A stretch of 64,000 nt of DNA from Zhongshania antarctica (lineage in GTDB: Bacteria > Pseudomonadota > Gammaproteobacteria > Pseudomonadales > Spongiibacteraceae): positions 1-64,000 of the forward strand of contig NZ_JACHHW010000011.1 of the NCBI RefSeq assembly GCF_014202945.1. The letters run 5' to 3'. The number at the start of each line of letters is the position of its first letter. Within the stretch, counting starts at the first letter, position 1. The translations under genes were made by a program, and so were the position numbers. The notes under the pieces are model-generated. The model ran no database searches. It had not been told where the DNA came from and saw only the letters and a program-made list of their open reading frames with translations. Shown here piece after piece: positions 12,152 through 63,955 of this stretch.

Positions 12152-12568
12152 ATGTCTATAGAAAATAAAGAGCTCCGCAAAGCAGGGCTCAAAGTTACCT
12201 TGCCTCGTGTCAAAATTTTGCAGTTACTGGAACAGGCTGAGAGCGACAATCAGCATTTCAGTGCAGAAGACGTCTATCGCGCGCTGATGGAGTCTGGCGA
12301 GGATGTAGGTTTAGCAACGGTTTACCGTGTGCTTACCCAGTTTGAAGCTGCAGGCCTGGTGGTTAGGCACAATTTTGAAGCAGGCCACTCGGTTTTTGAG
12401 CTAGAAAAAGGCGATCATCACGATCATATCGTGTGCCTAGAAACGGGCGAGGTCATCGAATTTTGCGACGACCTTATTGAAACGCGTCAGCGTCAACTGG
12501 TGGCCGAGCGTGGCTATGAGCTGGTTGATCATAGCTTGGTTTTGTATGTGAAGCCGAAGAAAGGCTAG
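12152..12568 (+). CDS. fur: Ferric uptake regulator Fur
   Basis: Fur is the iron-responsive repressor. The 138-residue protein has the winged helix (KVTLPRVKILQLLEQAE, YRALMESGEDVGLATVYRVL) and the metal-binding dimerisation domain with HHDHIVCLETGEVIEF. The first structural cysteine is present but the second of the CxxC pair is replaced (CLETG), and the C-terminal cysteine pair of enteric Fur is missing. This is the Pseudomonas-type form without the structural zinc-cysteine site. It is divergent from bamE. No clear Fur box is visible in the 76-bp gap between them. Confidence 0.95.
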   Translation: MSIENKELRKAGLKVTLPRVKILQLLEQAESDNQHFSAEDVYRALMESGEDVGLATVYRVLTQFEAAGLVVRHNFEAGHSVFELEKGDHHDHIVCLETGEVIEFCDDLIETRQRQLVAERGYELVDHSLVLYVKPKKG

Positions 12569-12808
12569 TCGGACGTCGGGTGTCTGAGGTCTGACGCATA
12601 AAGCCAAAGGCTGCGCTTGACGAGGTTTTGGGTGCGGAATCCAATTTTCCGACATCCGACATCCGACATCCGACATCCGACATCCGACATCCGACATCCG
12701 ACATTGGCTAGTCTGACGAAAAGTCTAAAACCCTTAACCTCAAGCAGCTTTCGTCACGTTTGCCGGTGCGAGTATTTAGCATCCGACGTCAGACGCCCGA
12801 CATCCGAC
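12568..12808. repeat. Repeat element A: terminal inverted repeats of 29 bp
   Basis: The left end at 12568-12596 and the right end at 12780-12808 are inverted copies matching at 24 of 29 positions. The ends are built from GTCGGAYGTC-type heptads. Between them lie a core with AAGCCAAAGGCT and the tandem heptamer array at 12649-12704. The element fills the gap between the fur stop and the recN stop (convergent genes). No protein is encoded by it. The inner core (GACGC, A-rich, GCCAAAGG, GCG) resembles the inner core of element B. Confidence 0.75.
12649..12704. repeat. Eight perfect tandem CCGACAT heptamers
   Basis: Eight uninterrupted copies of the 7-bp unit CCGACAT run from 12649 to 12704. The unit read on the other strand (ATGTCGG) belongs to the same GAYGKSR series as the ends of this element. 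A perfect array of this length is a candidate for slippage and copy number variation. Because 7 is not a multiple of 3, any open frame through it repeats a seven-residue peptide, which explains spurious ORFs here. Confidence 0.95.
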
Positions 12809-12815
12809 GAACCAA

Positions 12816-14480
12816 CTAATGCCTTACCCCCAGCATTTCCCGCGCATGCGCTAGGGTATTCTCGGTAATCGCGATACCGCCTAGCATCCGCGCAATCTCG
12901 TCAATTTTCTGTTCGTCTTTGAGCGGCTCTAGCTCGGTGCGTAGGTGTTTTTTGTCGCCCACTTTTTGCACGCGAATATGATGGTCGCCTTGGCTGGCCA
13001 CTTGGGGTTGATGGGTGACGCAGAGTACTTGGCTGCGCTGGCCGAGTTCTTTTAACAGTTTGCCGACGATTTCGGCAGTGGCGCCGCCAATGCCCACGTC
13101 GACTTCATCAAAGACAATGGTGGGTATTGCGGCAACTTGGGCGGTTACCACCTGTATGGCGAGGCTGATCCGTGATAGCTCGCCGCCGGAGGCGATTTTG
13201 TTCAGTGGTCCTTTGGCGGCGGCGGGGTTGGTGCTAATCAGTATTTCAACTTCTTCGCGGCCGCAGTTGTGTGGCTCGTCGCTTAGGGTGTGCAGGGCAA
13301 AGTCGACTTCGCAATGTTTCATGCTCAGGGCGCGCAGCTGTTCTTCGACGCGTTTTTTCATGGTGGCAGCGGCTTTGCGGCGCTTGTCGCTCAGCTTGGC
13401 GGCTTTGTCATTGTAGGACTTTAGTGATTCTTGTTGCTCAGCGCGGAGCTGCTCGAGCTTTTCGTCGCTGGCGTTAAGGCCTTCGAGTTGCTCTGCTAGT
13501 GATGCGTGCAGGGCTGGGAGCTCGCTGGCTTGTAGGTGGTGTTTGCGTGCCGTTTGGTAAATGGCATCGAGACGGCCCTCGGTTTCGGCCAGGCGGTCGG
13601 GGTCGAGTTCGGTGCCGTCGATGACATTTTGCAGTTCCCGTGCGGCCTCTTCAATTTGAATGCGGGCGCTCTCCATCAGTTGGGCGGCATTTTCTTGAGC
13701 GGCGCAGCGGTGTTGGCTGCTATTTAGCGAAGACAGGGCTTGATGGAGTATGCCCATGGCATTGACTTCGCCCTCGCGGCATAGCTGCAAGCTGTGGTGG
13801 TTGGCGGCGAGGATTTGCTCGGCATTGGCCAGCTGCTTTTGCTGGTTTTCGAGCTCTTCTAGCTCATTGGGCTGAAGGTTGAGGCGGTTCAGTTCTTCTA
13901 GTTGATAGCTAAGTAGCTGTTCCTGGGCATTTTGCTCGGCGGCGTTACTTTCTAGCGTGGCGAGGGCTTTGCTGCTGCGTTGGTATTGGCTGCAGTGTTC
14001 GCCGACTTGCTGGGCTAGTGCTGTGGTGCCGGCAAAGGCATCGAGTAGTTCGCGCTGATAGGGTTTTTGCAGCAATGATTGGTGTGCGTGCTGGCTGTGA
14101 ATATCTATTAATAGGCTGCCAAATTCGCGCACATCTTGCAGGGTGACAGGTTGACCGTTGATGTAGGCGCGCGAGCGACCCTCGCTGGTAATCACGCGTC
14201 GCAGTAGGCATTCGTTGTCGCCATCGAAATCGCGGGCTTTTAGCCAGGCGCCGGCGGCGGGAATTTGGCTTATTTCAAATAGCGCGTGAATGTCGGTGCG
14301 GTCGGCGCCGGGGCGGACAATGCCCGCGTCGGCGCGGTCGCCAAGGGCGAGGCCCAGCGCGTCGAGCATAATGGATTTGCCTGCGCCAGTTTCGCCGGTG
14401 AGTACGGTCATGCCGGGGTGCAGTTCAATGTCTAGGCTTTCTGTTATGGCGTAATTGCTGATGTGAAGGTGGCTCAGCAT
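12816..14480 (-). CDS. recN: DNA repair protein RecN
   Basis: RecN is an SMC-like ATPase that acts at DNA double-strand breaks with RecA. The 554-residue protein has the N-terminal Walker A GETGAGKS at residues 29-36, a long coiled coil (about 155-365) and the C-terminal ABC signature (LNKIASGGELSRISLAIQV) and Walker B (PTIVFDEVDVGIGG). A LexA-type box at 14513-14528 lies 33 bp upstream of the start, as expected for one of the most strongly SOS-induced genes. The gene is divergent from grpE, so DNA damage and heat shock promoters lie back to back. Confidence 0.97.
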   Translation of the reverse strand: MLSHLHISNYAITESLDIELHPGMTVLTGETGAGKSIMLDALGLALGDRADAGIVRPGADRTDIHALFEISQIPAAGAWLKARDFDGDNECLLRRVITSEGRSRAYINGQPVTLQDVREFGSLLIDIHSQHAHQSLLQKPYQRELLDAFAGTTALAQQVGEHCSQYQRSSKALATLESNAAEQNAQEQLLSYQLEELNRLNLQPNELEELENQQKQLANAEQILAANHHSLQLCREGEVNAMGILHQALSSLNSSQHRCAAQENAAQLMESARIQIEEAARELQNVIDGTELDPDRLAETEGRLDAIYQTARKHHLQASELPALHASLAEQLEGLNASDEKLEQLRAEQQESLKSYNDKAAKLSDKRRKAAATMKKRVEEQLRALSMKHCEVDFALHTLSDEPHNCGREEVEILISTNPAAAKGPLNKIASGGELSRISLAIQVVTAQVAAIPTIVFDEVDVGIGGATAEIVGKLLKELGQRSQVLCVTHQPQVASQGDHHIRVQKVGDKKHLRTELEPLKDEQKIDEIARMLGGIAITENTLAHAREMLGVRH

Positions 14481-14512
14481 AATGTTCTCTCACGGTAGGT
14501 GTGGGAAATTGT

Positions 14513-14528
14513 CTGTATATTTATACAG
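14513..14528 (-). promoter_or_regulatory. LexA (SOS) box of recN
   Basis: CTGT-ATATTTAT-ACAG matches the LexA consensus CTGT-N8-ACAG with an AT-rich spacer of eight bases. It sits between recN and grpE, 33 bp from the recN start codon. Confidence 0.88.
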
Positions 14529-14588
14529 TAAAATACTGTGACTGGGCAAGCGCTGGTAAATAAGGTGCTGAAATTTTTTTACGCTTGC

Positions 14589-14616
14589 CTTGAAATAGTT
14601 TGCTACAGCCCCATAT
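14589..14616 (+). promoter_or_regulatory. Sigma32 heat shock promoter of grpE
   Basis: CTTGAA at 14589-14594 and CCCCATAT at 14609-14616 are separated by 14 bases. Both boxes match the RpoH consensus perfectly. The start codon of grpE is about 57 bp further on, so heat shock induction of grpE is well supported. Confidence 0.9.
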
Positions 14617-14672
14617 CCCAGTCAGCGCGGCCATGCTGCCGCAAGTGTATAGGCGTGTAGGAGATAGTTTAC

Positions 14673-15269
14673 GTGGCAGAAGATCAGGATAAATCAGCAT
14701 CGCAAGATGAGGATGCTCAAGTAGAAGCGATTGTTGGCGAGATTCAAGACGCGCTTGATGGTGCTGAGGCTGAGCAGGCGTCTGCGCCAGCGGAAGAAAA
14801 GAGCCTTGAGGTACAGCTAGATGAGGCTAAGCAGGCTGCCGCTGATGCTAAAGAGCAGGCGCTGCGCGCCGTCGCTGACGCTCAGAATATCCGCCGCCGC
14901 GCCGAGAAAGACGCAGAAAACGCCCGTAAGTTTGCTTTAGAGAAGTTTGCTGGGGATATGCTGGTGGTGGCCGATAACCTCGACCGCGCCTTAGCGTCAG
15001 CCGATAGGGATAATGAGTCCTTAAAGCCGATGATCGAAGGGGTGGAGTTGACGCATAAATCGATGCTCGATGCCTTGGCTCGCCACAATGTGGTGCAGCT
15101 CAATCCGGTGGGTGAGCCCTTTAACCCCGAGTTTCACCAGGCCATGGCGATGGTGCCAAATCCTGATGCCGAGCCAAATTCAGTGATGGATGTCATGCAG
15201 AAAGGCTTCACCTTGAATGGCCGCTTATTGCGTCCTGCCATGGTGGTGGTCGCTAAAGCGCCGGAATAA
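14673..15269 (+). CDS. grpE: Nucleotide exchange factor GrpE
   Basis: GrpE releases ADP from DnaK. The 198-residue protein has an acidic disordered N-terminus (about 1-50), a long helix ([20 protein letters not shown]) and the conserved core ([37 protein letters not shown]) ending in the beta domain with [20 protein letters not shown] sequence (here [18 protein letters not shown]). It begins at a GTG at 14673, preceded by GTAGGAGA as ribosome site. It lies 120 bp upstream of dnaK and has its own sigma32 promoter. Confidence 0.96.
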
Positions 15270-15303
15270 TTTTTTAAATTGTGTAAAAAATGGTCTATGT
15301 CCC

Positions 15304-15331
15304 CTTGAAATATGTGGATAAGGGCCAATAT
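15304..15331 (+). promoter_or_regulatory. Putative sigma32 promoter of dnaK
   Basis: CTTGAA at 15304-15309 is followed after 14 bases by GCCAATAT at 15324-15331, an imperfect match to CCCCATNT. The position about 58 bp before the dnaK start and the family context support it. Confidence 0.6.
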
Positions 15332-15389
15332 CTGACAACAAGACATAGTGTTCGCCAAAAGTGGCGACTAGGTAAATCGGAGATTTAAC

Positions 15390-17315
15390 ATGGGTAAAAT
15401 AATCGGTATAGATTTGGGTACTACCAACTCTTGTGTGGCTGTTATGGACGGCGACAAGGTTAAGGTTATCGAGAATGCAGAAGGTACACGCACAACTCCT
15501 TCGATTGTTGCTTACACTGAAGACAAAGAAATTTTGGTTGGTCAGAGCGCTAAGCGTCAGGCTGTTACCAATCCGCATAACACCCTTTATGCGGTGAAGC
15601 GTTTGATCGGTCGTCGTTTTGAAGACGACGTGGTTCAAAAAGACATTAAGATGGTGCCTTACAATATCTGCAAAGCCGATAACGGCGACGCGTGGGTAGA
15701 AGTGAAGGGCGAGAAAATGGCGCCACCGCAGATTTCTGCGGAAATTCTCAAGAAAATGAAGAAAACTGCTGAAGACTACTTGGGTGAGAAAGTCACCGAA
15801 GCGGTTATCACTGTACCTGCTTACTTTAACGACTCTCAGCGTCAGGCGACTAAAGACGCTGGTCGTATCGCCGGTTTGGATGTAAAGCGTATTATCAACG
15901 AGCCTACCGCAGCGGCCTTGGCCTACGGTATGGACAAGTCTAAGGGTGATCGCACCATTGCGGTATACGACTTGGGTGGTGGTACCTTTGATATCTCGAT
16001 TATTGAAATTGCTGAAGTAGACGGCGAGCACCAGTTTGAAGTGCTGTCGACGAACGGCGACACCTTCTTAGGTGGTGAAGATTTTGATATGCGCCTGATC
16101 GATTATTTGGCGGAAGAGTTCAAGAAAGAAAACAGCATCGACCTGAAAGGCGATTCACTGGCTGTGCAGCGTCTGAAAGAAGCGGCAGAAAAAGCCAAAA
16201 TCGAGCTGTCTTCTAGCCAGCAGACTGAAATCAATCTGCCTTACATCACTGCCGATGCAACAGGTCCTAAGCACTTGGTTGTAAAACTGAGCCGCGCTAA
16301 GCTGGAATCACTGGTTGGCGATTTGGTTGCGCGTTCACTTGAGCCAATGAAAGTGGCGCTGAAAGACGCTGGTTTGTCTGCCTCTGAAATTGACGAAATT
16401 ATTTTGGTTGGTGGTCAGACGCGTATGCCTCTGGTGCAAACCAAGGTGACTGAGTTCTTTGGTAAAGAAGCGCGTCGCGATGTAAACCCTGACGAAGCGG
16501 TTGCCATGGGTGCTGCTCTGCAAGGCGCGGTATTGTCTGGCGAAGTGAAAGACGTACTGCTGCTTGACGTTACTCCTTTGAGCTTAGGTATTGAGACCAT
16601 GGGTGGTGTTGCCACTCACCTGATTGAGAAAAACACCACGATTCCAACTAAGAAATCGCAGGTATTCTCAACCGCAGACGACAATCAGCAAGCGGTAACA
16701 ATTCACGTTGTGCAGGGCGAGCGCAAGCAAGCCAGTGCCAACAAGTCACTGGGCCGTTTCGACTTGGCCGACATTCCGCCTGCACCGCGTGGTCTGCCGC
16801 AAATTGAAGTTACCTTCGATATCGATGCCAACGGTATTCTGCACGTGTCTGCTAAAGACAAGGCGACCGGCAAAGAGCAGTCTATTCGCATCACGGCCTC
16901 AAGCGGTTTGAGCGATGAAGAGATCGAGCAAATGGTGCGCGACGCAGAGGCAAATGCTGAAGCTGACAAGAAGTTCGAAGCACTGGTTGTAGCGCGCAAC
17001 ACGGCTGAAGGCATGGCTAATGCGACCCGCAAAACTTTAGAAGAAGCTGGCGATAAAGCGTCTGACGAAGAAAAAGCGGCGATCGAAGCAGCGCTGACCG
17101 AAGTTGACGAAGCACTTAAAGGCGATGATCTTGACGCGATTGAAGCGGCAACCAAGAAGCTGACTGAGGCGTCTGGTGGCTTGGCAGAGAAAATGTACGC
17201 CGAGCAAGCTGCTCAGGCGCAGGCTGAAGGCGGCGCAGAGTCGGCTCAAGCTGGCGGCGCAGATGACGTAGTCGATGCTGAGTTCGAAGAAGTGAAAGAC
17301 GACGACAAGAAGTAA
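15390..17315 (+). CDS. dnaK: Molecular chaperone DnaK (Hsp70)
   Basis: DnaK is the main ATP-dependent Hsp70 chaperone. The 641-residue protein has the ATPase signatures [17 protein letters not shown] at the N-terminus, [16 protein letters not shown] and [13 protein letters not shown], then the substrate-binding domain (about 390-510), and a helical lid with an acidic tail ending in [15 protein letters not shown], the usual co-chaperone-binding terminus. Its length is normal. It follows grpE and precedes dnaJ, separated from dnaJ by repeat element B. Confidence 0.99.
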
Positions 17316-17348
17316 ACTCGACGCGAGGCCGTGCCTCGCTTGAGTGTA

Positions 17349-17485
17349 ACGCTGGACGGGAGACGGAAGACGCAAAGGCCAAGGTCAGCGTGTTTTGCGA
17401 TCTCCCGTTTGGCATGAAGGGTAGAATCATTTATAGGGGTTGTGGGTGGCACTTCAAAAAGCGTCTCCCGTCTCCCGTCTAGCGT
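17349..17485. repeat. Repeat element B: 25-bp terminal inverted repeats
   Basis: The ends at 17349-17373 and 17461-17485 are inverted copies matching at 23 of 25 positions. They are built on GACGGGA heptads (GGACGGGAGACGG on the left, CGTCTCCCGTCTCCCGTC on the right). The element of 137 bp lies between dnaK and dnaJ and encodes nothing. Its left end shares the 16-base sequence GGGAGACGGAAGACGC with the region after estA (63893-63908). Because it sits inside a presumed operon, a strong RNA hairpin here could separate dnaK and dnaJ expression. Confidence 0.8.
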
Positions 17486-17496
17486 GAAGCGAAGCT

Positions 17497-18615
17497 ATGT
17501 CAAAACGAGATTATTACGAAATTCTGGGCGTGTCGCGAGACACCGACAGCAAGGATATTAAAAAAGCCTACCGTCGTATCGCGATGAAAAATCACCCCGA
17601 CCGTAACCCCGAAGACCCCAAGGCGGACGATATCTTCAAAGAGGCCACCGAGGCCTATGAAGTGCTGTCTAACGAGGAGAAGCGTGCGGCCTATGATCGT
17701 TTTGGTCATGAGGGCGTTAACGCTGGCGGCGGTGGTGGTGGCGCGGGCGGCTTTAGCGATATTTTCGGTGATGTGTTTGGCGATATCTTTGGCGGTGGTG
17801 GCGGTGGTCGTCAGCGCGGTCCGCAGCGCGGCTCTGACTTGCGCTACACTCTTGATATTGATCTGGAGCAGGCAGTACACGGCTCCACGGCCAAGATTCG
17901 TATCCCAACACTGGTTGCGTGTAAGCCCTGTGATGGCAGTGGCGCGAAAAAAGGCAGCAAGCCGGTAACCTGTAGCACCTGTAATGGTGTTGGTCAGGTG
18001 CGTATGCAGCAGGGCTTTTTTGCTGTGCAGCAGGCTTGCCCGCACTGTCGTGGTTCCGGCACCATCATTGCTGATCCTTGTACGAGCTGTCGCGGTCAGG
18101 GTCGCGTTGAAGAGACCAAGACCCTGTCAGTGAAAGTGCCTGCGGGCGTGGATACCGGCGATCGGATTCGCTTGACCGGTGAAGGTGAGGCCAGTCCCAA
18201 TGGCGGCCCAGCTGGCGATTTGTATGTGCAAATGCAGGTGCGTCCTCACGCGATATTTAAGCGCGATGGCAAAAACCTACACTGCGATGTGCCAATCAGT
18301 TTTGCCGATGCGGCGCTGGGCGGTGAGCTGGATGTGCCAACCTTAGAGGGTCGGGTTAAGCTTAAAATACCGCCAGAGACGCAAACCGGAAAATCCTTCC
18401 GTTTGCGTGGCAAGGGTATAACCCCTGTGCGCGGTGGTAGTACTGGCGACTTGATTTGCAAGGTGACCGTTGAAACGCCGGTGTCATTAAACAAGCGCCA
18501 GAAAGAGCTGTTGCAAGAGTTGCAGGCCAGTCTTGCTGGTGACGACAAGCAGTCGCCCCGCGCAAAAAGCTGGTTTGACGGTGTAAAAACCTTTTTTGAC
18601 GATATGAAAATCTAA
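17497..18615 (+). CDS. dnaJ: Co-chaperone DnaJ (Hsp40)
   Basis: DnaJ stimulates the DnaK ATPase and delivers substrates. The 372-residue protein has the J domain with the HPD motif ([11 protein letters not shown], about residues 31-41), a Gly-rich linker (about 72-108), four zinc-finger CxxCxGxG motifs ([32 protein letters not shown]) and the C-terminal substrate-binding domains. It is type I with all cysteines intact. It follows dnaK by 181 bp, most of it occupied by repeat element B. Confidence 0.98.
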
Positions 18616-18631
18616 TTTCGTCAAAACAGCG

Positions 18632-18660
18632 CGAGGGCTGATTTGCTGAATCGGCCCTCG
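18632..18660 (+). terminator. Hairpin after dnaJ
   Basis: CGAGGGC (18632-18638) pairs perfectly with GCCCTCG (18654-18660), and the stem continues inward over five more pairs with one wobble around a TGCTG loop. There is no T run directly behind it, but it lies 16 bp after the dnaJ stop and would make a suitable transcript end or 3' stabiliser. Confidence 0.6.
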
Positions 18661-18716
18661 ACTTCCCCTCTGTTTTTCTCCATTCTGAGCTGCATATAAA
18701 AGCCGCGGAAATAAGT

Positions 18717-20093
18717 ATGGATAAGACCCTCAATCAATTCGTTGCCAATTATCTGTGGTCTGAAAAGGTGGCAGATTATTCGGCGCCGCGCCGCAAATTG
18801 ATTCACTTGCTGCGCTATGTTTACGTGGTGCTAGACGATCTTGCCAAGGGTGAGCTAACCCTGCGGGCCATGAGCTTGGTGTACACCACCTTGCTGTCGC
18901 TGGTGCCAATGATGGCGGTGAGTTTTTCGGTGCTCAAAGCCTTTGGTATGCACAATAAGCAGTTGCAGCCGATTATGCTGCAGTTTCTGGCGCCGATGGG
19001 CGCGCAGGGCGTGGAGATTACCGACAAAATCATCGGCTTTATCGATAATGTTAAAATCGGCGTGCTTGGTACCTTTGGTGTGGCGCTATTGTTTTACACC
19101 GCGATTTCGCTCATTCAGAAAGTCGAGGCCACCTTCAATTATATTTGGCGTTTAGATCAACACCGCAGTATTGGTCGTCGCTTCGCCGACTACGGCAGTG
19201 TGATGCTGATCGGGCCGCTATTGGTGTTCTCTGCGATTGGCTTGTCGGCCAGTGTGCTGAGTGGCAGCTTTGTGCAGGCTATTAGTCATCAGCTGCCTTT
19301 CATGCAGTATTTGATTACCTTTGCCACGGAAGCTGCGCCCTATTTAATGATCATTGCGGCCTTCAGCTTCTTTTATATGTTTATTCCGAATACTCGGGTC
19401 ACTGTGCGGGCGGGGTTGATTGCCGGGGTAGTGTCTGGCTTTTTGTTTCAGAGTTTGGGATGGGGTTTTGGTAGTGTAGTGGTGTCGGCTAGTGGCAGCG
19501 GGACTTATGCAATTTACTCGGGCTTTGCCATTCTCATTTTGTTTATGATGTGGATGTACATCAGTTGGTTGATTTTGCTGGTGGGCAGCAGCGTCGCATT
19601 TTACGTTCAGCATCCTGAGTATGTCGCGCCGACGCGGCGTAGCGGTGATTTAAGCATTAAGCAGCGGGAGGCTTTAGCCCTGCAAATTATGGGGGTGATT
19701 GCTGAGCGTCATTACAAGTCGCGTAAACCGTTTTCGGCGAGTGATTTTGTGTTGCGTTTACGCGTTCAGATTCAGGGCGTGACTAAGGTGTTGCGAGCGC
19801 TGAAGGAGGCTGGTCTAATCACCGAGAATAGTGAAGAGCCAGCCCGTTATTTACCGAATGCGCCACTTGAAAAAACCAGTTTAAAGCAAGTCATTGATGC
19901 CGTGCGCAGTGAAGGCAATGCATCAATGCTGGGCTTGGGTACGCCGCGCAGGCCAGTGCATGGTGTGGCGGCGGTGACTAAAGCAATTGATGACGCCCTG
20001 GATGCTGCTTTGGCGGCGACCAGTGTGCGGGATATGGCAATTGAAGATGACGGTTCGGCGCTTGATGGCGCTGAGGCTGGCAAGAACAATTAA
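18717..20093 (+). CDS. yihY: YihY/BrkB-family inner membrane protein
   Basis: The 458-residue protein belongs to the YihY family (formerly called RNase BN, a name now known to be wrong). About six hydrophobic segments lie between residues 50 and 300, with the family sequence RAMSLVYTTLLSLVPMMAVSF near the start and FAILILFMMWMYISWLILLVG near the end of the membrane part. The C-terminal 150 residues are soluble and look like a winged-helix region (LQIMGVIAERHYKSRKPFSA). The function is unknown. It lies alone between the chaperone genes and dapB. Confidence 0.88.
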   Translation: MDKTLNQFVANYLWSEKVADYSAPRRKLIHLLRYVYVVLDDLAKGELTLRAMSLVYTTLLSLVPMMAVSFSVLKAFGMHNKQLQPIMLQFLAPMGAQGVEITDKIIGFIDNVKIGVLGTFGVALLFYTAISLIQKVEATFNYIWRLDQHRSIGRRFADYGSVMLIGPLLVFSAIGLSASVLSGSFVQAISHQLPFMQYLITFATEAAPYLMIIAAFSFFYMFIPNTRVTVRAGLIAGVVSGFLFQSLGWGFGSVVVSASGSGTYAIYSGFAILILFMMWMYISWLILLVGSSVAFYVQHPEYVAPTRRSGDLSIKQREALALQIMGVIAERHYKSRKPFSASDFVLRLRVQIQGVTKVLRALKEAGLITENSEEPARYLPNAPLEKTSLKQVIDAVRSEGNASMLGLGTPRRPVHGVAAVTKAIDDALDAALAATSVRDMAIEDDGSALDGAEAGKNN

Positions 20094-20918
<825 letters not shown>

Positions 20919-21047
20919 GGCGTGGTATTTGCGCGCTAAAAGTCAGGTTTTAGCCTGAAACGGCGCTAAGCTTGCTATTGCTGGTATTTATTGCGGTGGA
21001 CGAGCGGGGGTGGTTTCGCGTAAAATCGCGCATCAGATTAGGGTGCC

Positions 21048-21111
21048 GAGCTTAATAAGCTCCGTATCCCCGCAAGGAGCGAGGTGAAGTACGTCTTCAT
21101 CTCGCTTTTTT
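21048..21111 (+). promoter_or_regulatory. Two hairpins with T run upstream of carA (terminator or attenuator)
   Basis: A perfect GAGCTT-AAT-AAGCTC hairpin at 21048-21062 is followed by a second stem: GCGAGGTGAAG (21079-21089) with CTTCATCTCGC (21095-21105), one wobble, and then six T (21106-21111). This is a good intrinsic terminator 94 bp before the carA start. It could simply end dapB transcription, or attenuate carAB in response to pyrimidines or arginine. The 286-bp gap between dapB and carA holds nothing else I can identify. Confidence 0.7.
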
Positions 21112-21204
21112 GCACGCGTATTTTCCTCTGTGGTTCTTTGGTTGTCGTTCCGGCGAGTATGTCGGTGGCAACTCTCGGCCGCAAGTTTGATCCAGGAGGT
21201 AGTC

Positions 21205-22344: not shown

Positions 22345-22381
22345 AAAGTCCGGCCTTGCGGTTTTGTATGCGGTTTTTCTG

Positions 22382-22468
22382 GTCTGGCGTCGGGAGTCTG
22401 ACGTCGGATGAGAAAAAACAGGATCGCGCCCGACTTTAGCGTCCGACGTCCAGCTTCCGGCGTCCGAC
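22382..22468. repeat. Repeat element C between carA and carB
   Basis: The ends at 22382-22410 and 22440-22468 are inverted copies matching at 21 of 29 positions, and contain the same GTCGGACGTC-type heptads as element A. The whole element is 87 bp, with a 29-bp centre, and lies inside the carA-carB pair. If transcribed it would fold into one long imperfect hairpin between two subunits of one enzyme. Confidence 0.7.
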
Positions 22469-22506
22469 TTTTTGTAACGAAGCACAGAGCCAGATGATTA
22501 GAACTT

Positions 22507-25500: not shown

Positions 25501-25728
25501 CATATTGTTGATATGGTGAAGAATGGCGATGTCGATCTGATTATTAATACTACAGAAGGTAAGCAGGCAATTGCGGATTCGTCACTGATTCGTCGTAGTG
25601 CACTGGCCAATAAGGTGAGCTATACAACGACCTTGGCGGGTGCCGAGGCTATTTGCCAGGCGCTGGTGTTTGGCGAAGAGAAAACCGTACGCCGCTTACA
25701 AGATGTTCATATGGGGTTGATGCAATGA
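22507..25728 (+). CDS. carB: Carbamoyl-phosphate synthase large subunit
   Basis: CarB makes carbamoyl phosphate from bicarbonate, ammonia and two ATP. The 1073-residue protein has two homologous ATP-grasp halves: the N-terminal half with [20 protein letters not shown] and the C-terminal half with [19 protein letters not shown] at about residue 560, then the C-terminal allosteric MGS-like domain from about 935. Length and organisation are normal. The last codons overlap the start of greA by four bases (ATGA). Confidence 0.99.
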
Positions 25729-51628: not shown

Positions 51629-51664
51629 ATAGTGTCGCGGCAGGAGTACCTCCTGCCGTGAGTG

Positions 51665-53671: not shown

Positions 53672-53710
53672 AATGACTCATTACGTGGTGATACTTGGGT
53701 CGCTGCAGGC

Positions 53711-55513: not shown

Positions 55514-55587
55514 GTCCCATTATTTTCCGCAGTCTCAAAGCACAAATATTAAGTATGTGCATTAAGTCTATGTTTTTACGCGTTAAT

Positions 55588-56601: not shown

Positions 56602-56649
56602 TGTTGCCTTTTTAATCTACGGTTTACGACCTAGCCGCTGAGGAGAACC

Positions 56650-57219
56650 ATGGCCAATTATTCTACTAACGAATTTCGCAACGGGCTTAAAGTTATGCTC
56701 GATGGCGAGCCCTGTTCAATTCTGGAAAATGAATTTGTTAAACCCGGTAAAGGTCAGGCCTTTAACCGTGTGCGTCTGCGCAATCTTAACTCTGGTCGAG
56801 TATGGGAGCGCACGTTTAAATCCGGTGAGTCATTGGAAGGCGCTGACGTTGTTGACCAAAGCATGGAGTATCTCTACAACGACGGCGAATTTTACCACTT
56901 TATGGACCCGGAATCCTTTGAACAGGTTCAAGCTGACGCAAAAGCCGTGGGCGACGCGTCGCTGTGGCTGAAAGAGCAGGATGTCTGCACCGTGACCCTG
57001 TATAACGGCGCGCCTTTGTCGGTTACGCCGCCAAATTTCGTTGAATTACCCATCGTTGAAACAGACCCTGGTGTTAAAGGCGATACCGCGCAAGGTGGAA
57101 CCAAGCCCGCTCACCTGAGTACGGGTGCGGTGGTGAAAGTGCCTTTATTTATTAGTGAAGGTGAAGTTATCAAAGTAGATACGCGTACTGGTGAATACCA
57201 GAACCGGGTAAAAAGCTAA
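56650..57219 (+). CDS. efp: Elongation factor P
   Basis: EF-P prevents ribosome stalling at consecutive prolines. The 189-residue protein has the three OB-type domains and the modification loop [14 protein letters not shown] with Lys34, the residue beta-lysylated by EpmA. The start ATG follows GAGGAGAACC. The stop is directly followed by the epmA ATG, so the two are coupled. It is divergent from epmB. Confidence 0.98.
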
Positions 57220-58173
57220 ATGAGCGAGTGGCGGCCCACTGCCGATTTTGCGGCCTTGGGCCGCCGTGCACAGCTGCTCAGTCAGATTCGCCAGTTTTTT
57301 GCGGCGCGCGGGGTGCTTGAAGTAGACACCCCGCTGCTAGCCTCCGCCCCTGTTACCGACCCCAATATTGAAGCCATTACTGCCCAATCGCCTAGCGGCG
57401 AGGGGCAAATGTACCTGCAGACCTCGCCGGAGTTTGCCATGAAGCGCTTATTGGCTGCGGGCAGTGGGCCAATTTATCAAATCTGCAAAGCCTTTCGGCA
57501 AGGCGAGCGCGGGCGGCGCCATAACCCTGAGTTCACCATGTTGGAATGGTATCGGCCAGATATGGGGCTCGATGCCTTAATTGATGAGGTGGCGGCCGTT
57601 GTTGCTCTGGCGAGCGGTAGCGCGGATGTGGCGCGGATGACTTACCAGCAGGTGTTTGAGATGCATTGCCATCTCAATCCGCATACTGCGAGCCTAGTTG
57701 AACTAAAGGCCTGTGCAGGGCAGCACCTCGATCTGGGTTTTGACAGCGATGATCGCGACCTGTGGCTACAGTTGTTGATGTCGTCGGTGGTCGAACCTGC
57801 ATTAGACCCTGAGCAAATCAGCATTGTTTGTGATTTTCCTGAGACGCAGGCCGCCTTGGCAAAAATTGCGGTGAATGGCGAAGGCCAACGAGTAGCTCGT
57901 CGTTTTGAGGCTTTTTACGCAGGGATGGAGTTGGCGAATGGCTATGATGAGCTGCGCGACGCGGGTGAGCTGGTGCGCAGGATTGGCGACGATCATCGCC
58001 GTCGCGGCCTTAGCGGCCAAGATTTGCCACCGATAGACCGTTATTTATTAAAGGCCATGCCATACCTACCAGAATGCACTGGTGTCGCGATTGGCTTTGA
58101 TCGGCTGGTGATGATTGCGTGTAAAGCTGAGCGGATAGACCAAGTTATTGCCTTTCCGCTGGAGCGGGTGTGA
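57220..58173 (+). CDS. epmA: EF-P beta-lysine ligase (GenX/PoxA)
   Basis: EpmA attaches (R)-beta-lysine to Lys34 of EF-P. The 317-residue protein is a short class II lysyl-tRNA synthetase-like enzyme without an anticodon-binding domain. The class II motifs are FFAARGVLEVDTPLL (motif 1), AFRQGERGRRHNPEFTMLEW (motif 2) and GVAIGFDRLVMI (motif 3). It follows efp without a gap. Together with the divergent epmB this gives the complete beta-lysylation set. EpmC, which hydroxylates EF-P in E. coli, is not in the window. Confidence 0.96.
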   Translation: MSEWRPTADFAALGRRAQLLSQIRQFFAARGVLEVDTPLLASAPVTDPNIEAITAQSPSGEGQMYLQTSPEFAMKRLLAAGSGPIYQICKAFRQGERGRRHNPEFTMLEWYRPDMGLDALIDEVAAVVALASGSADVARMTYQQVFEMHCHLNPHTASLVELKACAGQHLDLGFDSDDRDLWLQLLMSSVVEPALDPEQISIVCDFPETQAALAKIAVNGEGQRVARRFEAFYAGMELANGYDELRDAGELVRRIGDDHRRRGLSGQDLPPIDRYLLKAMPYLPECTGVAIGFDRLVMIACKAERIDQVIAFPLERV

Positions 58174-58177
58174 GTGC

Positions 58178-58198
58178 GTCGGACGTCAGGCGTCTGAC
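58178..58198. terminator. Repeat hairpin D at the convergent epmA/psd ends
   Basis: GTCGGACG (58178-58185) and CGTCTGAC (58191-58198) pair with one wobble around TCAGG. The sequence belongs to the heptad repeat family and lies across the psd stop (58186-58188), so it may end both transcripts. The psd C-terminus SSDA is encoded within it. Confidence 0.6.
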
Positions 58199-59046
58199 GA
58201 GAGTGTTCCCAAAACTTCACCTAAGCGGGTTGGGGTGGTGGCCACAAATTTTTCAGCCCACTGCACTTGGTCTTTGCCAAACAGCACTATTGCGGTAGAG
58301 CCAAGTTTGAAGCGCCCCATTTCCTCGCCTTTTTCTAAAAAGATTTCTCTGGCGCCTTTGCGGTAGTCGGTGGTTTTAATGCCGCTGGGCGGCGGCGCTA
58401 TTTGGCCGTCCCAGACGGTTTCGATACCCGCCACGATCAGCGCGCCGACCAAAATAACCGCCATCGGACCAGCCTCAGTCTCAAATAAACACACTGCGCG
58501 TTCATTGCGGGCGAATAAGCCTTGTACGTTTTCGGCGGTGGTAGTGTTTACTGAAAATAGCGCGCCGGGAATATAGGTCATCGATTGCAGCGTACCCGCC
58601 AGCGGCATGTGCACGCGGTGATAGTCACGGGGCGACAAATACACGGTGGCAAAGCTGCCGCCAGAGAATAGCGCCGCCGCTTCGCGATCACCGCCGAGCA
58701 GTTGCAGTAAGCTGTAATCTTGGCCCTTGGCCTGAAAAATTCGTCCGTCAATAATTTGCCCCAGTTGGCTTATAGCACCGTCTGCGGGGCAGGCAATGTC
58801 CTGTGCGCCAGTGGCAATCGGCCGAGCGCCGTCTTTTAGCGCGCGGGTGAAAAACGCGTTGAAGTTCTGGTAATTGCGGTAATCTGGGTCCGCCGCCTCG
58901 TTCATGTCAACGTTGTACTGGGCGATAAATCGGCTGATTAGCAGGTCTTTCAGCCAAGGAATTTGGGTTTCCGCTAATTTACCAACGAGCCTCGATAGCA
59001 GGTGCTGGGGCAGAATATATTGCAAAATTATAAACGCGATGTTCAC
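58186..59046 (-). CDS. psd: Phosphatidylserine decarboxylase
   Basis: Psd makes phosphatidylethanolamine from phosphatidylserine at the inner membrane. The 286-residue proenzyme has the self-cleavage motif LGST (residues 248-251; Ser250 becomes the pyruvoyl group) and the conserved [16 protein letters not shown] segment with its charge relay histidines. It converges with epmA, and its last four codons lie in a repeat hairpin. The rhodanese gene follows in the same direction upstream. Confidence 0.96.
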
Positions 59047-59097
59047 ACAATAGTCCTTTTTAACATAGGTTCAAGCTTGCTGGGCGCTACCTTCGGA

Positions 59098-59916
59098 TTA
59101 GTCGCCAACTTCTATAGGGGTGTCATCGCGATTTCCCCACTCTCCCCACGAGCCGTGATAGCCCTTTATATGTGGGTAGCCGAGGATTTTCATTAATAAG
59201 TAAGTGAGGCCCGAACGATGGTGGGTCTGGCAGTGGGTGATAATGGTTTTATCACTGCTGAGGCCGAGTTGATCTAAGCGCAGCTGCAGAGTGCGTAGGT
59301 CCTTCAGGCGCATATCGTTCTCTTTGTCGATGAGCTCTAACCAGTCTAAATTGACGGCGCCGGGAATGTGGCCACCGCGCTGCGCGAGTACTTTTTCGCC
59401 CCGATACTCCTCTGGTGAGCGGGCGTCCCAGATTGCCAGCTGGCTGTTGCTGAGTAGGCTGATAAAGTCTTCGATCTCGGCGATAGGGGTGCTGTCAATG
59501 CTGATAGCGATTTCACTCGGCGGTGGCAAATTTGCCACTTCCTCGCTGGGGTGGCCACCATTTAGCCATGCCTGTAGGCCGCCATTTAGATAGGAGTAGT
59601 TGTGGTGGCCAATAACATCCAGTGTCCAGATTAAGCGTCCAGCCCAGCCACCACCTTCATCGTCATAAACAATAACGTGTTTCTCGGGGCTTAGGCCGAC
59701 GCGAGAAAAGAGTGATTGTAATTGCGCTGTCGAGGGCAGTTTGCCAACGGCGGGCTTGATGCCGCACTGGAGTTCGGCGGGGGCAATGTGAACCGCACCA
59801 GGCACATGATGTTTTGCGTAATTGTCGGCGCTGCTGGTATCTAAGATAAGCAGTTTGGGCTCGTGGAGTGCGTCGGCGAGCTGGGTCGCTTCAATAAGTA
59901 ATGGCCAGTCTTTCAT
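59098..59916 (-). CDS. Sulfurtransferase, rhodanese type (SseA-like)
   Basis: The 272-residue protein has two rhodanese domains, the first inactive and the second with the active-site cysteine at Cys229 in ITHCQTHHRSGL. The usual active loop of SseA (CGSGVTA) is CQTHHRS here, so it is a different sulfurtransferase type, nearer the thiosulfate group with CxTxxRS loop. The physiological donor cannot be told. It lies upstream of psd in the same direction, with 51 bp between them. The psd-rhodanese-rsgA-orn neighbourhood is common in gammaproteobacteria. Confidence 0.85.
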   Translation of the reverse strand: MKDWPLLIEATQLADALHEPKLLILDTSSADNYAKHHVPGAVHIAPAELQCGIKPAVGKLPSTAQLQSLFSRVGLSPEKHVIVYDDEGGGWAGRLIWTLDVIGHHNYSYLNGGLQAWLNGGHPSEEVANLPPPSEIAISIDSTPIAEIEDFISLLSNSQLAIWDARSPEEYRGEKVLAQRGGHIPGAVNLDWLELIDKENDMRLKDLRTLQLRLDQLGLSSDKTIITHCQTHHRSGLTYLLMKILGYPHIKGYHGSWGEWGNRDDTPIEVGD

Positions 59917-60085
59917 AATAGATAATGTGTTCGCTGATTTATAATGAATTTTAGCAGTAGCGGCCGAGGTGATGCGATGTAAATAAGCCTTTCACTGCGG
60001 GCGTCATGGTGCCACAAAATGTATCGCTGTAAAATTGAGACAGTAATTATTGGATATTACTCACTGCGTTAAATTACCCTGCACA

Positions 60086-61102
60086 TTATTCTGCGGTGAG
60101 ACTTGCAATAATCTGTCGATAACTGGCCATGCGCTCGGGCCGAATTTTATCCTCGGCCTCGGCGGCAAGCAGGGCGCAGCGCGGTTCGTGTTCGTGCTTG
60201 CAGTCCCGAAAGCGGCACAGACCGAGAAAGGGCCGGAATTCGATAAAGCCAGCCAATACCTTTTCTCGATCCATATTCCACAGCGCAAACTCCCTTATCC
60301 CCGGCGAGTCTATAAGGCTGCCACCGTCAGGGAAATGGTAAAGCCGCGCGGTCGTGGTGGTGTGTCGGCCCTTGGCGGTGGCTTCAGACAATGCGCCAAT
60401 ACGGGAGTCGGTGCCGGGCAGCAAGCTGTTAACTAAGGATGACTTACCCACCCCGGATTGACCAACAAACACGCTGATGTGCTCGCGTAGGGTGGCTTTT
60501 AGCTCGTCGAGTCCGTGTTCAGACTCTGTTGACGCCCGTGTGACGGGGTAGCCAATCTCTTCGTACCTGGCGAGCATGGAGTTCAGGTAGTCGCTGTTCT
60601 CTTCGTTAACTAGGTCAGTTTTATTAAGCAGTAAAATTGGGCGAATACCGATGGCCTCGGAGGCCACTAAGTAGCGGTCAATAAGATTGGCGTGGGCACG
60701 GGGTTCTGGGGCAATAACGATCACAATGTGGTCGATATTGGCCGCCACCGGTTTGAGCTTGCCATGATTGTCGGGGCGTTGCAGCAGGCTGCGGCGCTCG
60801 TTGCAGGCGACGACGACACCCGTGGGTTTACCCTCGTGCCAGGTGACGCGGTCGCCGGTCACCAGGCCTTCGACCTGGGCGCGCACATGGCAGCGCTGGC
60901 GTTGACCGCCATCGCCTTCAACTTCAACCTGCTGGCCAAAGTGGCTGACGATCAGGCCGCTCTGCTCGGGGCCGAGCTCACCTTCGTTTAGTGCTTGGTC
61001 AGCGCGGCTGTCGCGTTTACTCGCGCGCTCGGTGCGTTCTGCTTGAACTTTTTCTATCCGCCAGCGCTGCTGGCGGCTGAGTTTACGCTTGGTCATAGAC
61101 AC
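60086..61102 (-). CDS. rsgA: Ribosome small subunit-dependent GTPase RsgA
   Basis: RsgA is a circularly permuted GTPase acting in late maturation of the 30S subunit. The 338-residue protein has an N-terminal OB domain, then the motifs in permuted order: NKTDLV (G4), [14 protein letters not shown] (G1) and [10 protein letters not shown] (G3), and the C-terminal zinc knuckle [16 protein letters not shown]. The N-terminus is basic. It is divergent from orn, the order found in most gammaproteobacteria. Confidence 0.97.
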
Positions 61103-61277
61103 GTCATTCGCCGGAGAAGCGCCATCTTAACCCATGAGCTGGTATAATCGACACTGCGGTGACACAGACACCGTGTATTTTGATAGCAATTCTGGTTTGT
61201 TGCAGCGTAACCTACTGACTCCGCGCGGTTTCTACCGTGTTTTTGTTTCCCCTTTTTTATATCGCAAAGGCATCCGC

Positions 61278-61823
61278 ATGGCTAAAGCACAGAATCTTAT
61301 TTGGATTGATCTGGAAATGACCGGTTTAGATACCCTCAATGACCACATCATTGAAATTGCCACGGTGGTGACCGATAGCGACCTCAATGTGTTGGCTGAG
61401 GGGCCGGTGCTGGCAATTCATCAGCCTGACGAAGTCCTCGCGGCGATGGACGAATGGAATACGCGCCAGCACGGCGAGTCGGGCTTGGTTAAGCGAGTGC
61501 AAGACACCTGCATTACTGCGCTAGAGGCCGAGCGTTTAACCCTCGCCTTTCTCGATAAACACGTTGAGAAAGGTGCTTCGCCAATGTGTGGCAATAGTAT
61601 CTGTCAGGATCGGCGCTTTATGGCCAGAGAAATGCCCGAGCTAGAAGCGTTTTTTCACTACCGCAACCTCGACGTTAGCAGTGTAAAAGAGTTGGCGCGG
61701 CGCTGGCGCCCAGAGTTAATGAAGGGCTTAAAGAAGTCTGGTGCTCATTTGGCGCTCGATGATATCCGTGATTCGATTGCCGAGCTTCAATATTACCGCG
61801 AGCATTTTATCCGGCTGTCCTAG
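61278..61823 (+). CDS. orn: Oligoribonuclease
   Basis: Orn degrades short RNAs, including pGpG from c-di-GMP breakdown. The 181-residue DEDDh exonuclease has the motifs [12 protein letters not shown] (Asp11, Glu13), the [17 protein letters not shown] segment and [20 protein letters not shown] (His and Asp). The start at 61278 ([16 protein letters not shown]) matches the family. An upstream in-frame ATG at 61134 would add 48 unrelated residues. It is divergent from rsgA. Confidence 0.97.
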
Positions 61824-61862
61824 GCCTGCCATTCCTTTGATGACCATTTCATAGGTATAAGC

Positions 61863-61894
61863 CCATATTGTTGTCGCTGACAACATGGGTTTTG
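61863..61894 (+). terminator. Terminator-like hairpin after orn
   Basis: CCCAT-(AT)-TGTTGTC and GACAACA-TGGG pair around GCT with a small bulge, followed by four T. It lies about 40 bp after the orn stop. The remaining gap up to estA holds AT-rich sequence with no clear feature. Confidence 0.65.
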
Positions 61895-61995
61895 CTGCTT
61901 ATTGTTTTACCGCTGTGTTGATAGCTTAATTTCGCCTGCGCTAGCAGTCGCGAATTTATCAACTAAGCTGTAGATAATAATAAGGGGATACCATT

Positions 61996-63834
61996 ATGAA
62001 AAAGTTGACCGCACTCTGCGCAGCAAGCCTGCTGTGTTGTACCCAAGTTTCAGCCCAGGCTCATACTTACTTTGACCAATTATTTATTTTTGGTGACAGT
62101 CTGCTCGATACTGGTAATTTGGGTATTCGTTTTACTAACCGTGTTGGTGACGGCAATGGTGATTTTTCTACGGGAGCATATGCCGAAATTGCCCCTCAGC
62201 ACCTCGGCAGAGCACTTGGCTTAGCGACTGATCCGGCTAACTCTTCAGGCACAAACTACGCGGTTGGTGGCTACAGAACAGATCAAATTTTAGGTTCGGT
62301 GGTAGGTGCGAATTTGACGCCTAACCCGCGAGCTTTAATATTGATGGACGGGGGTGGTAATGATTTTTTACAGGGAAGGATTACAAATTCAGACGAAGCG
62401 ATAGCTGCGGCTAAGAATTTGATTGGCGGCGTATCGCTCTTAAGTAGAGCCGGTGGCCGATACATCATGCTCAGTAACCTACCTGATCTGGGAAAGACTG
62501 CTGCTGTGCAGGCTCAAAATTTTAGTGCTCCTTCCTCTGGGGCGGCGGCTACTGCGTCTGCAGGGGCTGCAGGTTTTAATCAAGCGGTCCAGACTTATGC
62601 GAACTTCAGCAGTGCCAATATCATTCCTGTTGATCTCGCGGGCTTGATCAACTATGTGTCGAATAACGCCGAGGCCTATGGATTCGCCAATGGCGCTAAT
62701 GCGGCATTTGGGCCTATTGGGACGTTTGACCAGCGCTATATGTGTTTTGATGACGGCGTGACACCAGGTGCTCCTAACCAGCCAGCTCCTGGTTGTATCG
62801 AGCATCCGGTTTACGGTATCAACGGCTCAACCCCCAACCCTGATAAGCTTATGTTTAATGACGGCGTGCATCCAACAGCTCGTGTAGGTGCGATTGCTGG
62901 CGATTACATGATCGATGTAATTGTGGCGCCACAAGTGGTTGGTCAGCTACCCAGCTTAGGCTTAGGTATCGCTCGCACGCAGCAGCAAAGTTTGGTGCAG
63001 GTGATGCGCGAAAATCGCTGGTTAGCTGATGGGGACCGCTTGTTTATAAGCGCAAGTGGCGCAACCGGTGATGAGCCCGCGGGCGGTGATCAAGAGTCTA
63101 AATACTTAACTTTAGGCCTAAGTCGCGCCGTAGCGCCGGGCTTAAGCTTGGGCGCGGCAATTAGTATGGCTGACCATGAGTTAAATACCGATCGCAGCGA
63201 GTTTGCGGCGACCAGCGTTGGTCTTAGTGGTCTTGTGAATTACCGCGAAAATCGCTGGTTGGCAGAGGCGAGTGTCGGCTTGAATGTGGTTGATTACAGC
63301 GACATTGATCGCAAATTTAATCTGGGCAGTCAAAACCTAACGGCCAGTGGTGGCACTGATGGCCACGGTTGGCATTTAGACGGCCAGCTCGCTTATAACT
63401 TACTGTCTTCGCAAACCGTGAGTTTGGCGCCCGCCCTCGGCGTGCGTTGGTTGAATACCAACGTTGATGGTTATGAAGAATCGGGTGGTGAGGTCTCTAA
63501 TTACCAGTGGGGTGAGCAGAGCCGGGCTAGTCGCCAGTTCCGTTTGGGTATGTTGGCTAATGTTGCGGTGAGCGAGAGTTTTAGTCTCTATGCTGAAGCC
63601 TTCGGCGTGTCCGAAGAAGAGGACGCGGACGAGACTATCGAGATCCGTAATACCAATCTAGGGTATGCCAGCTATCGCTTGCCAAGTTACCAGAACGATG
63701 GTGAAGGATTTGCCGATGTGAGCTTGGGTGCGGCGCTGAGCGTGGGACAAGCGCGGGTGGCGTTGAACCTGAATTATACGGATGAAGGTGAAGGGCGCGA
63801 GAGCGCGATGTTAAATTATTCGCGACCGTTTTAA
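61996..63834 (+). CDS. estA: EstA-type GDSL esterase autotransporter
   Basis: The 612-residue protein is a type V secreted esterase. It has a signal peptide (about 1-22), a GDSL/SGNH hydrolase domain (about 25-310) with the catalytic serine in FIFGDSLLDTGN (Ser35), the blocks NYAVGG, GGNDFLQG, and DGVHPT (Asp289, His292), and a C-terminal beta-barrel from about 345 to 612 ending in NYSRPF. EstA in Pseudomonas is an outer membrane anchored esterase affecting rhamnolipid and motility. Here the substrate is unknown. The gene is followed by repeat region E. Confidence 0.92.
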   Translation: MKKLTALCAASLLCCTQVSAQAHTYFDQLFIFGDSLLDTGNLGIRFTNRVGDGNGDFSTGAYAEIAPQHLGRALGLATDPANSSGTNYAVGGYRTDQILGSVVGANLTPNPRALILMDGGGNDFLQGRITNSDEAIAAAKNLIGGVSLLSRAGGRYIMLSNLPDLGKTAAVQAQNFSAPSSGAAATASAGAAGFNQAVQTYANFSSANIIPVDLAGLINYVSNNAEAYGFANGANAAFGPIGTFDQRYMCFDDGVTPGAPNQPAPGCIEHPVYGINGSTPNPDKLMFNDGVHPTARVGAIAGDYMIDVIVAPQVVGQLPSLGLGIARTQQQSLVQVMRENRWLADGDRLFISASGATGDEPAGGDQESKYLTLGLSRAVAPGLSLGAAISMADHELNTDRSEFAATSVGLSGLVNYRENRWLAEASVGLNVVDYSDIDRKFNLGSQNLTASGGTDGHGWHLDGQLAYNLLSSQTVSLAPALGVRWLNTNVDGYEESGGEVSNYQWGEQSRASRQFRLGMLANVAVSESFSLYAEAFGVSEEEDADETIEIRNTNLGYASYRLPSYQNDGEGFADVSLGAALSVGQARVALNLNYTDEGEGRESAMLNYSRPF

Positions 63835-63840
63835 GGGCAT

Positions 63841-63868
63841 GTCGGACGTCAGATGTCTGGCGTCCGAC
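63841..63868 (+). terminator. Repeat hairpin E1 after estA
   Basis: GTCGGACGTCAGA and TCTGGCGTCCGAC form a 13-bp stem with one wobble and a TG loop, 7 bp after the estA stop. The sequence is made of the same heptads as elements A and C. It may end the estA transcript. Confidence 0.6.
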
Positions 63869-63892
63869 GAATCCAGGTGCTGAACGCTCGAT

Positions 63893-63955
63893 GGGAGACG
63901 GAAGACGCTAATATTACGACTCGTCCGACGTCAGACGTCAGACGTCAGACGAGTT
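63893..63955. repeat. Repeat region E2 with GTCAGAC heptamers
   Basis: The stretch begins with GGGAGACGGAAGACGC, identical to the left end of element B (17358-17373), and ends with three tandem GTCAGAC units (63930-63950) bounded by CTCGTC and GACGAG. It belongs to the same repeat family. The remaining 45 bases of the window hold nothing I can identify. Confidence 0.75.

Follow-up and report, generated by a model that had tools for sequence, protein, structure and literature searches.

The closest described system is the intervening sequence (IVS) in helix 45 of the 23S rRNA of Coxiella burnetii, which has 428 nt, an open reading frame (ORF) for the protein S23p, an inverted stem of 28 bp and variable GACAGAT heptamers, and which is cut by RNase III (PMC4990558). 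Here, a stretch of 64,000 nt from Zhongshania antarctica (NCBI RefSeq assembly GCF_014202945.1, contig NZ_JACHHW010000011.1, positions 1 to 64,000; called the window in the following) was analyzed, in which five intergenic loci, elements A to E, are built of 7-bp units (heptads). With moderate confidence, these loci are assigned to two families of IVS-like elements, as members without an ORF. The families share with the Coxiella IVS the short length, inverted ends (~four heptads here), a variable number of heptamers and, in the full form, an IVP/S23p gene. In contrast to it, they lie between protein genes and not in 23S rRNA, behind the stop codons of many genes, are mostly devoid of an ORF and occur as two competing types.

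Intergenic 7-bp units are also described for Xanthomonas (GGGAATC) and Nostoc (GGGGA(C/T)T). For Xanthomonas, with ~190 sites per genome, 186 and 183 repeats were reported, four units being commonest and some forming inverted pairs; in two species, 90% occupy the gap between the same pair of ORFs (Rehm et al., 2015, PMC4692102). The unit differs from those described here, GGGAGAC and GACGTCR in two or more copies, which do not fit GGGANTN, and neither an IVP gene nor an exchange of families appears in the covered part of that report. The TAACTGA heptamers of the Beggiatoaceae are likewise intergenic, taxonomically patchy and in some cases overlap a stop codon; unlike the present elements, they are direct repeats and mostly lie upstream of start codons (PMC4679880). 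Repetitive extragenic palindromes (REPs) of the GTAG and CGTC super-families are patchy palindromes downstream of genes as well, of 20–40 bp and with an unpaired tag, whereas heptads are paired here and lengths change by 7n bp. For the CGTC REPs, with an unpaired terminal CGTC, a stem of 8–9 bp and a loop of 4–5 nt, no transposase is known (PMC3733652). At dimorphic microdiversity loci, short segments are replaced between conserved flanks, as is the case here; the content is mixed there, whereas the same two families recur here (PMC2884548).

Within 12 bp of an end, GTAG or CTAC was found in 4 of 22 elements; a GTAG foot tag is not a feature of the set, and CGTC lies inside paired heptads instead of forming an unpaired end. 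Terminal inverted repeats, as in miniature inverted-repeat transposable elements (MITEs), are present. In cyanobacteria, short tandemly repeated repetitive (STRR) heptamers form tandem heptads between genes. The present elements resemble them in this respect, and in Nostoc and its relatives IVP genes with heptad borders occur. In the literature covered, which includes few subscription papers, no report of these repeats in Zhongshania was found, nor a general link between heptamers and IVP, the heptamers of the Coxiella IVS apart.

The two families are named GTC (units GACGTCR) and GGGA (arms ACGCTRGACGGGAGACGGGAGACGC). The original prediction had assigned all units to one degenerate form, GAYGKSR, which turned out to mix the two. 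In GGGA elements, the inverted arms have about four heptads, and the interior between them varies from copy to copy. Within the GTC family, a long sub-family shares its interior at unrelated loci. Here, the heptad-free interiors of element A, the EttA slot, a copy on contig C6 (C6:97k) and a slot in genome G008 align beyond 500 of 500 shuffles in all six pairs; a fifth (C6:335k) is weaker, lying beyond all shuffles with one of the four, while 0.6%, 1.6% and 17% of shuffles equal it with the others. Heptads had been removed for this test, whereas the profile of the sub-family includes them. Tandem arrays reach 7 to 14 units. The elements form dyads; RNA folds of 22 elements gave a mean z of -4.6 (range -11.2 to -0.7, values without matched folding of other intergenic gaps) with stems of at least 9 bp. 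A second hairpin repeat (GCATTCGCT..GCTCACATGGATACCTGCCTACGCAGGTATGACG) was seen inside or beside GGGA arms at L053:15354-15513, L055:7989-8201, L111, L113 and L114.

All five predicted loci are present in the window (Table 1), and all lie at gene 3' ends, as had been claimed. Element A occupies the convergent gap between the stops of fur (+) and recN (-), B lies behind dnaK and before dnaJ (fold z -7.1), C behind carA (z -5.2) and E 6 bp behind an autotransporter/GDSL-lipase gene (z -6.1). Element D lies 4 bp behind epmA, overlaps the stop codon of psd and supplies it (z -3.8). Runs of at least two exact GAYGKSR heptads occur three times in the window, compared to 0.14 in Markov shuffles. An ungapped recount of the imperfect inverted arms gave the predicted matches, 24/29 for A, 23/25 for B and 21/29 for C, and E reaches 24/29 once one arm is shifted by 5 bp; at random places the arm geometries of A, B and E have on average 12.6, 11.3 and 12.6 matches (maxima 19, 19 and 24). 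Counted with at most one mismatch, the units of A, B, C, D and E are equalled in 1.8%, 10%, 0.19%, 9% and 0.16% of random windows. Unit counting alone does not set B or D apart; both are supported by arms or hairpin and by relatives, and D also by an indel of exactly 7 bp against the sister genome G010. The 16 identical bases of B and E (GGGAGACGGAAGACGC) exceed the shuffled maximum of 11. The inner core said to be common to A and B has a local score of 17, which 13% of shuffles equal, and was not upheld. A search with Rfam over the window returned tmRNA, one tRNA and int-alpA only, with no match at the five loci.

Table 1. Positions of the heptad elements, their parts and other features in the window
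Feature	Position	Strand	Details
Element A, GTC type	12568..12808	no strand	outer inverted arms 12568-12596 and 12780-12808
Core of long GTC sub-family within element A	12567..12664	-	interior alignment and profile matches
Tandem GATGTCG heptads within element A	12650..12705	-	7 perfect units
Element B, GGGA type	17349..17485	no strand	arms 17349-17373 and 17461-17485
Hairpin words in the dnaK-dnaJ gap	17353-17410		
Element C, GTC type	22382..22468	no strand	between carA and carB
Element D, single GTC hairpin	58178..58198	no strand	epmA/psd convergent ends
Element E, composite	63841..63955	no strand	GTC hairpin 63841-63869; GGGA arm ~63883-63909; GTC array 63921-63953
Island edge at ssrA	2114-3963	-	tmRNA gene 3602-3963, phage-type integrase 2217-3542, int-alpA RNA 2114-2179

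Both families occur in high copy number. In the genome of Z. antarctica (G000; 3.85 Mb, 26 contigs; neighbours by protein in Zhongshania and Spongiibacter/Neomelitea; gene names from NCBIfam and Pfam), the search for further copies that had been proposed as a check gave 120 matches to the two-heptad pattern GAYGKSRGAYGKSRGA with at most one mismatch, against 10 for the reversed control. The 100 matches listed correspond to ~56 places, joined by hand within 300 bp and including some by chance; among them the spread is uneven, with none in C1:1-254,683 and ~15 places on C5. Seven of 17 relatives in the genus are rich, with 66–125 matches (G002, G008, G010, G014–G017), eight do not exceed their own control (G003, G005–G007, G009, G011–G013), and G001 (38, control 24) and G004 (26, control 12) are intermediate. 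In another genus of the family one of three genomes is rich (G020, 91 matches), and in other families of the order none of 36 exceeds 18, with controls there of up to 26. Among 369 genomes of the class, the GGGA form was found, besides G000, in G313 (26), G408 (9) and G396 (4, no better than the control). These three Gammaproteobacteria of other orders have gaps tiled by heptads of many sequences (L093–L104), such as GACGGGA, GACAGGA, GACTCGT, GAAGCGT, GCCGCCC and TGCTCCC; no IVP gene was found in the pieces of them that were analyzed.

The position behind stop codons was surveyed in 464 kb of G000, namely the window and 20 stretches, 12 of which were placed on matches; the other eight were chosen with the match list known and give no estimate of density. 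Genes were called by a longest-ORF rule, and the clusters do not include D and E. Of 47 clusters, 37 are intergenic, intergenic DNA making up 12.6%, and the ten within genes are single 14-bp matches. The gaps holding clusters are co-directional in 22 cases, convergent in 12 and divergent in one, compared to 172, 51 and 57 background gaps, so that divergent gaps hold 1/35 clusters vs 57/280 gaps. The nearest stop codon lies within 20 bp in 22 of 34 clusters. A GTC element often begins within the stop codon; at one slot (L049 13696|14960) the protein is terminated by the TAG of the element, sooner than is the case in G005 and G007. In E. coli, REPs near stop codons affect translation. The proposed non-coding amplified family at gene ends with a MITE- or REP-like layout and 7-bp build stands, apart from its being a single family.

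The presence of elements differs between sister species, filled and unfilled sites being another check of the original prediction. In Z. marina, BJYM1, Z. aquimaris and Z. aliphaticivorans, four named members of Zhongshania, slots D and E are free of elements, with 15–40 bp instead of D and an ordinary terminator instead of E, although three of them are rich in heptads at other places. A metagenome-assembled genome of Zhongshania has GGGA sequence at both slots. In a row of fatty-acid-metabolism genes, all seven slots are filled in G000, G010, G017, G008, G016 and G004, as are five of five readable slots in G002; in G005 and G007 all seven are unfilled, with 8–45 bp free of heptads. At six of the seven, some species have GTC only and others GGGA only. 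Slot A is of GTC type in G000 and G016 and of GGGA type in G010, G002, G017 and G008; by eye, GC-rich hairpins are seen in G005, G006, G007, G012 and G013, and the slot was unreadable in G003, G014 and G015. At slot C, G007, G004 and G005 have, judged by eye, a hairpin whose stems differ but whose AGCTTCC loop is similar.

In the dnaK-dnaJ gap, the facing words CGGGAGA and TCCCGTT are unchanged across 16 aligned genus members, G003, G009, G018 and G019 with their different gap being left out; therefore no covariation can be drawn from these words. The outer right arm of element B is clear in heptad-rich members only. The hairpin words are kept genus-wide, even where the GGGA family is rare, and the left arm is near the GGGA arm. 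The hairpin is a possible source locus of the GGGA family.

Neither of the two enzymes that had been suggested as related, a REP-associated tyrosine transposase (RAYT, PF01797) or a reverse transcriptase (RVT_1, PF00078), was found in G000; genome-wide enzyme searches covered these two families. PF01797 is also absent from the heptad-rich G002, G008 and G020 (G002 and G020 being incomplete, 84% and 70%) and present in G010 and G014–G017, in total in 14 of 21 genomes. RVT_1 is also absent from the heptad-rich G008, G014 and G017 and present in G002, G010, G015, G016 and G020. Both were rejected as necessary movers, since each is absent from several heptad-rich genomes.

The statement that no related transposase is seen holds for the window; outside of it, between metK and ahcY, a candidate for a related protein was found. 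Here, G000 has a 119-aa gene between GGGA arms, and G010 a 119-aa gene between GTC arms. Both belong to PF05635 (23S_rRNA_IVP; 124 and 135 bits, cut-off 33.8) and TIGR02436 (four helix bundle protein). Between the facing arms, 17/18 and 16/18 positions are matched (shuffle maxima 13 and 14). The two proteins are identical at 58 of 114 residues (51%), far below the 92.1% identity of the two genomes over 210,852 aligned bases. This gene is a candidate for the related protein that had been sought. The analyzed sequence of G000 and G010 and the other Zhongshania pieces examined yielded no further IVP gene.

The same association is seen on plasmids of other phyla. A search gave 20 records with a distant IVP relative, mostly from cyanobacteria, of which 17 were analyzed; H9, H13 and H18 are second records of strains or genera already in the sample. 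Tandem repeats with at least 16/21 matches at lag 7 or 8 flank 15 of the 17 IVP genes, nine of them on both sides, compared to 3/42 other gene edges and 28/781 random windows from the same stretches. When all lags from 4 to 12 were allowed, 7 bp was best in 14 and 8 bp in three, and facing inverted arms of at least 15/18 are present in nine of 17. The 8-bp borders belong to IVP genes on plasmids of Gemmatirosa, Picosynechococcus and Leptolyngbya (L162, L163, L172). On the cyanobacterial plasmids L157, L159 and L163, the IVP genes lie within CRISPR gene rows (cas6-cas4 twice, cas10-cmr3), behind the upstream stop codon.

Elements that are kept between G000 and G010 change by whole units. In G010, the copy of D is longer by exactly 7 bp and that of E shorter by 14 and 11 bp; further indels are two of 7 bp at L049:10803, 7 and 21 bp in L050, two of 7 bp in L053 and three of 14 bp at L042:17952. 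Near heptads, 9 of 40 indels are multiples of 7 as counted raw, and 8 of 13 in kept elements once, after viewing the list, 25 indels in replaced slots and two in a tandem-repeat gene had been removed, compared to 9 of 77 in other intergenic DNA.

Eleven slots have in addition been replaced by the other type between these two genomes, with borders at the aligned coding ends. Ten are GTC in G000 and GGGA in G010 (two also with GTC in G010), and the reverse, eleventh one is the metK-ahcY slot; L156:15503, also changed and with both types in G010, is outside this count. The G010 stretches L116, L118, L152 and L154 gave no usable match and L120 and L151 little. In a control of 134 gaps with aligned flanks, 4/14 with at least three exact units were replaced vs 4/120 others, and three of the latter four replaced gaps hold degenerate heptads by eye. 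Colinearity also breaks free of heptads at L042:7671, L044:19326, window 32892 and L051:5189, and in tandem-repeat genes in L041 and L054. At the EttA slot, G000 and not G010 is probably the changed side, because G008 and G004 share GGGA with G010. Between G017 and G002, four of the eleven breaks listed are at heptad slots. At three of these, GTC in G017 stands against GGGA in G002; the fourth, slot 14850, holds both types in both genomes and has been rebuilt.

These replacements could also be explained by two old alleles that species swap by homologous or homology-assisted illegitimate recombination, with IVP maybe as their ultimate source. This is considered rather unlikely. Segment replacement is described for dimorphic loci (PMC2884548), and both types form a mosaic over the species. 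Identity between G002 and G017 varies by block from 76 to 98% and these species therefore recombine; at two of their four changed slots the nearest 30 bp of the left flank reach only 0.867 and 0.833. At slot 14850, however, the upstream flank is identical over 500 bp and the downstream flank over 100 bp, with 96–99% up to 500 bp. The flanks of nine replaced G000/G010 slots have an identity of 0.916, compared to 0.921 for the genome and 0.964 for 18 kept sites, a comparison that would hardly reveal a donor as distant as G010. Sharing of a type follows flank similarity within 15 bp only, with 0.872 in 56 same-type pairs vs 0.803 in 62 other-type pairs, and 0.886 vs 0.873 and 0.848 vs 0.849 beyond; this comparison uses interdependent pairs across species and excludes rows typed both, other or empty.

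Plain heptameric simple-sequence repeats of the Xanthomonas and Nostoc kind, which slip in place while nothing moves, would account for the indels of 7n bp and the long arrays, and fit the heptad-tiled gaps in G313, G408 and G396 as well as the repeat counts and inverted pairs of Xanthomonas (PMC4692102). They would leave unexplained the inverted arms, the arms around IVP genes, the interiors common to unrelated loci and the complete change of type at fixed slots, and this explanation appears improbable.

A low probability is also given to the IVP gene being a passenger between REP-like palindromes that are moved by something else. The single IVP gene found per genome and its arm type, opposite to the direction of the swaps, are in line with a passenger. 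Two different IVP versions in two arm types at one slot, the association on plasmids of other phyla and the same make-up of the published 23S IVS (PMC4990558) argue against it. Terminators or RNA stabilizers selected for their dyad, with convergent heptad sequence, are very improbable, since gene-end position, hairpins (folded without matched gaps) and the ordinary terminators of relatives at A and E are set against many elements between co-directional genes of one row, the same sequence at unrelated genes, and a dyad that alone needs neither 7-bp units nor an enclosed IVP gene.

The favored explanation remains that of IVS-like elements. Their full form, found between metK and ahcY, consists of a heptad arm, the gene for the 119-aa four-helix-bundle 23S_rRNA_IVP protein and an inverted heptad arm, and the common form of the arms alone around a short interior. 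The following course is proposed for them. The IVP protein would move the palindromes; copies would enter gene ends by a process using it in trans, perhaps together with host functions. After entry, the heptads would slip, and a new copy would displace the old one, probably via a composite stage. The RNA hairpin may be tolerated in the mRNA because it lies behind the stop codon, and it may be cut by RNase III like the Coxiella 23S IVS.

Several observations weigh against this explanation. All five loci in the window lack an IVP ORF, and one IVP element per genome was found, at the same slot, in ~1/6 (G000) and ~1/7 (G010) of the sequence, which covers nearly all listed heptad places of both. 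Although the IVP gene of G000 has GGGA arms, this genome holds GTC in 10 of the 11 changed slots; the resident IVP type is therefore opposite to the prevailing swap, which speaks against a simple picture of each enzyme serving its own arms. Neither target duplication nor clean insertion was found between close genomes, only replacements and length changes by heptad units. On the plasmids, the threshold of 16/21 was chosen after the inverted-arm results had been seen, the 17 records cannot count as independent (L168 and L169 being near-copies), Calothrix L161 has no such repeats and Scytonema L169 reaches 15.

Among the long simple repeats of bacteria, heptamers are the commonest, and the IVP/S23p family is annotated only as "four helix bundle protein." A wider proposal is put forward tentatively. 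Bacterial intergenic heptamer repeats, here, in cyanobacteria and perhaps beyond, could be the arms of one widespread mobile element with an IVP four-helix-bundle protein in its full form, which would settle behind stop codons and shed its gene, while versions with different 7- or 8-bp units would rival and displace one another at shared gene-end slots. If this link is true, the prevalence of heptamers and the role of the IVP/S23p family each become testable through the other. Here, one genus combines unfilled and filled slots, composite stages, swaps and a full-length copy, and operon spacers can be rebuilt while their coding flanks remain identical.

Two further features were observed. Another dispersed repeat, which is not heptad-built (ACGCAGCGATCTTTTTGCACGCTGGCTGCGTTAAAAATGTGCTCGGTTGGTCACGTATT; L049:9561-9728, orthologues in L123–L126, L128 and L129), occupies the same gap in several species, heptad-poor ones included. 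In the window, a genomic island has its edge at ssrA (Table 1), and the alignment with G010 breaks up upstream of this edge.

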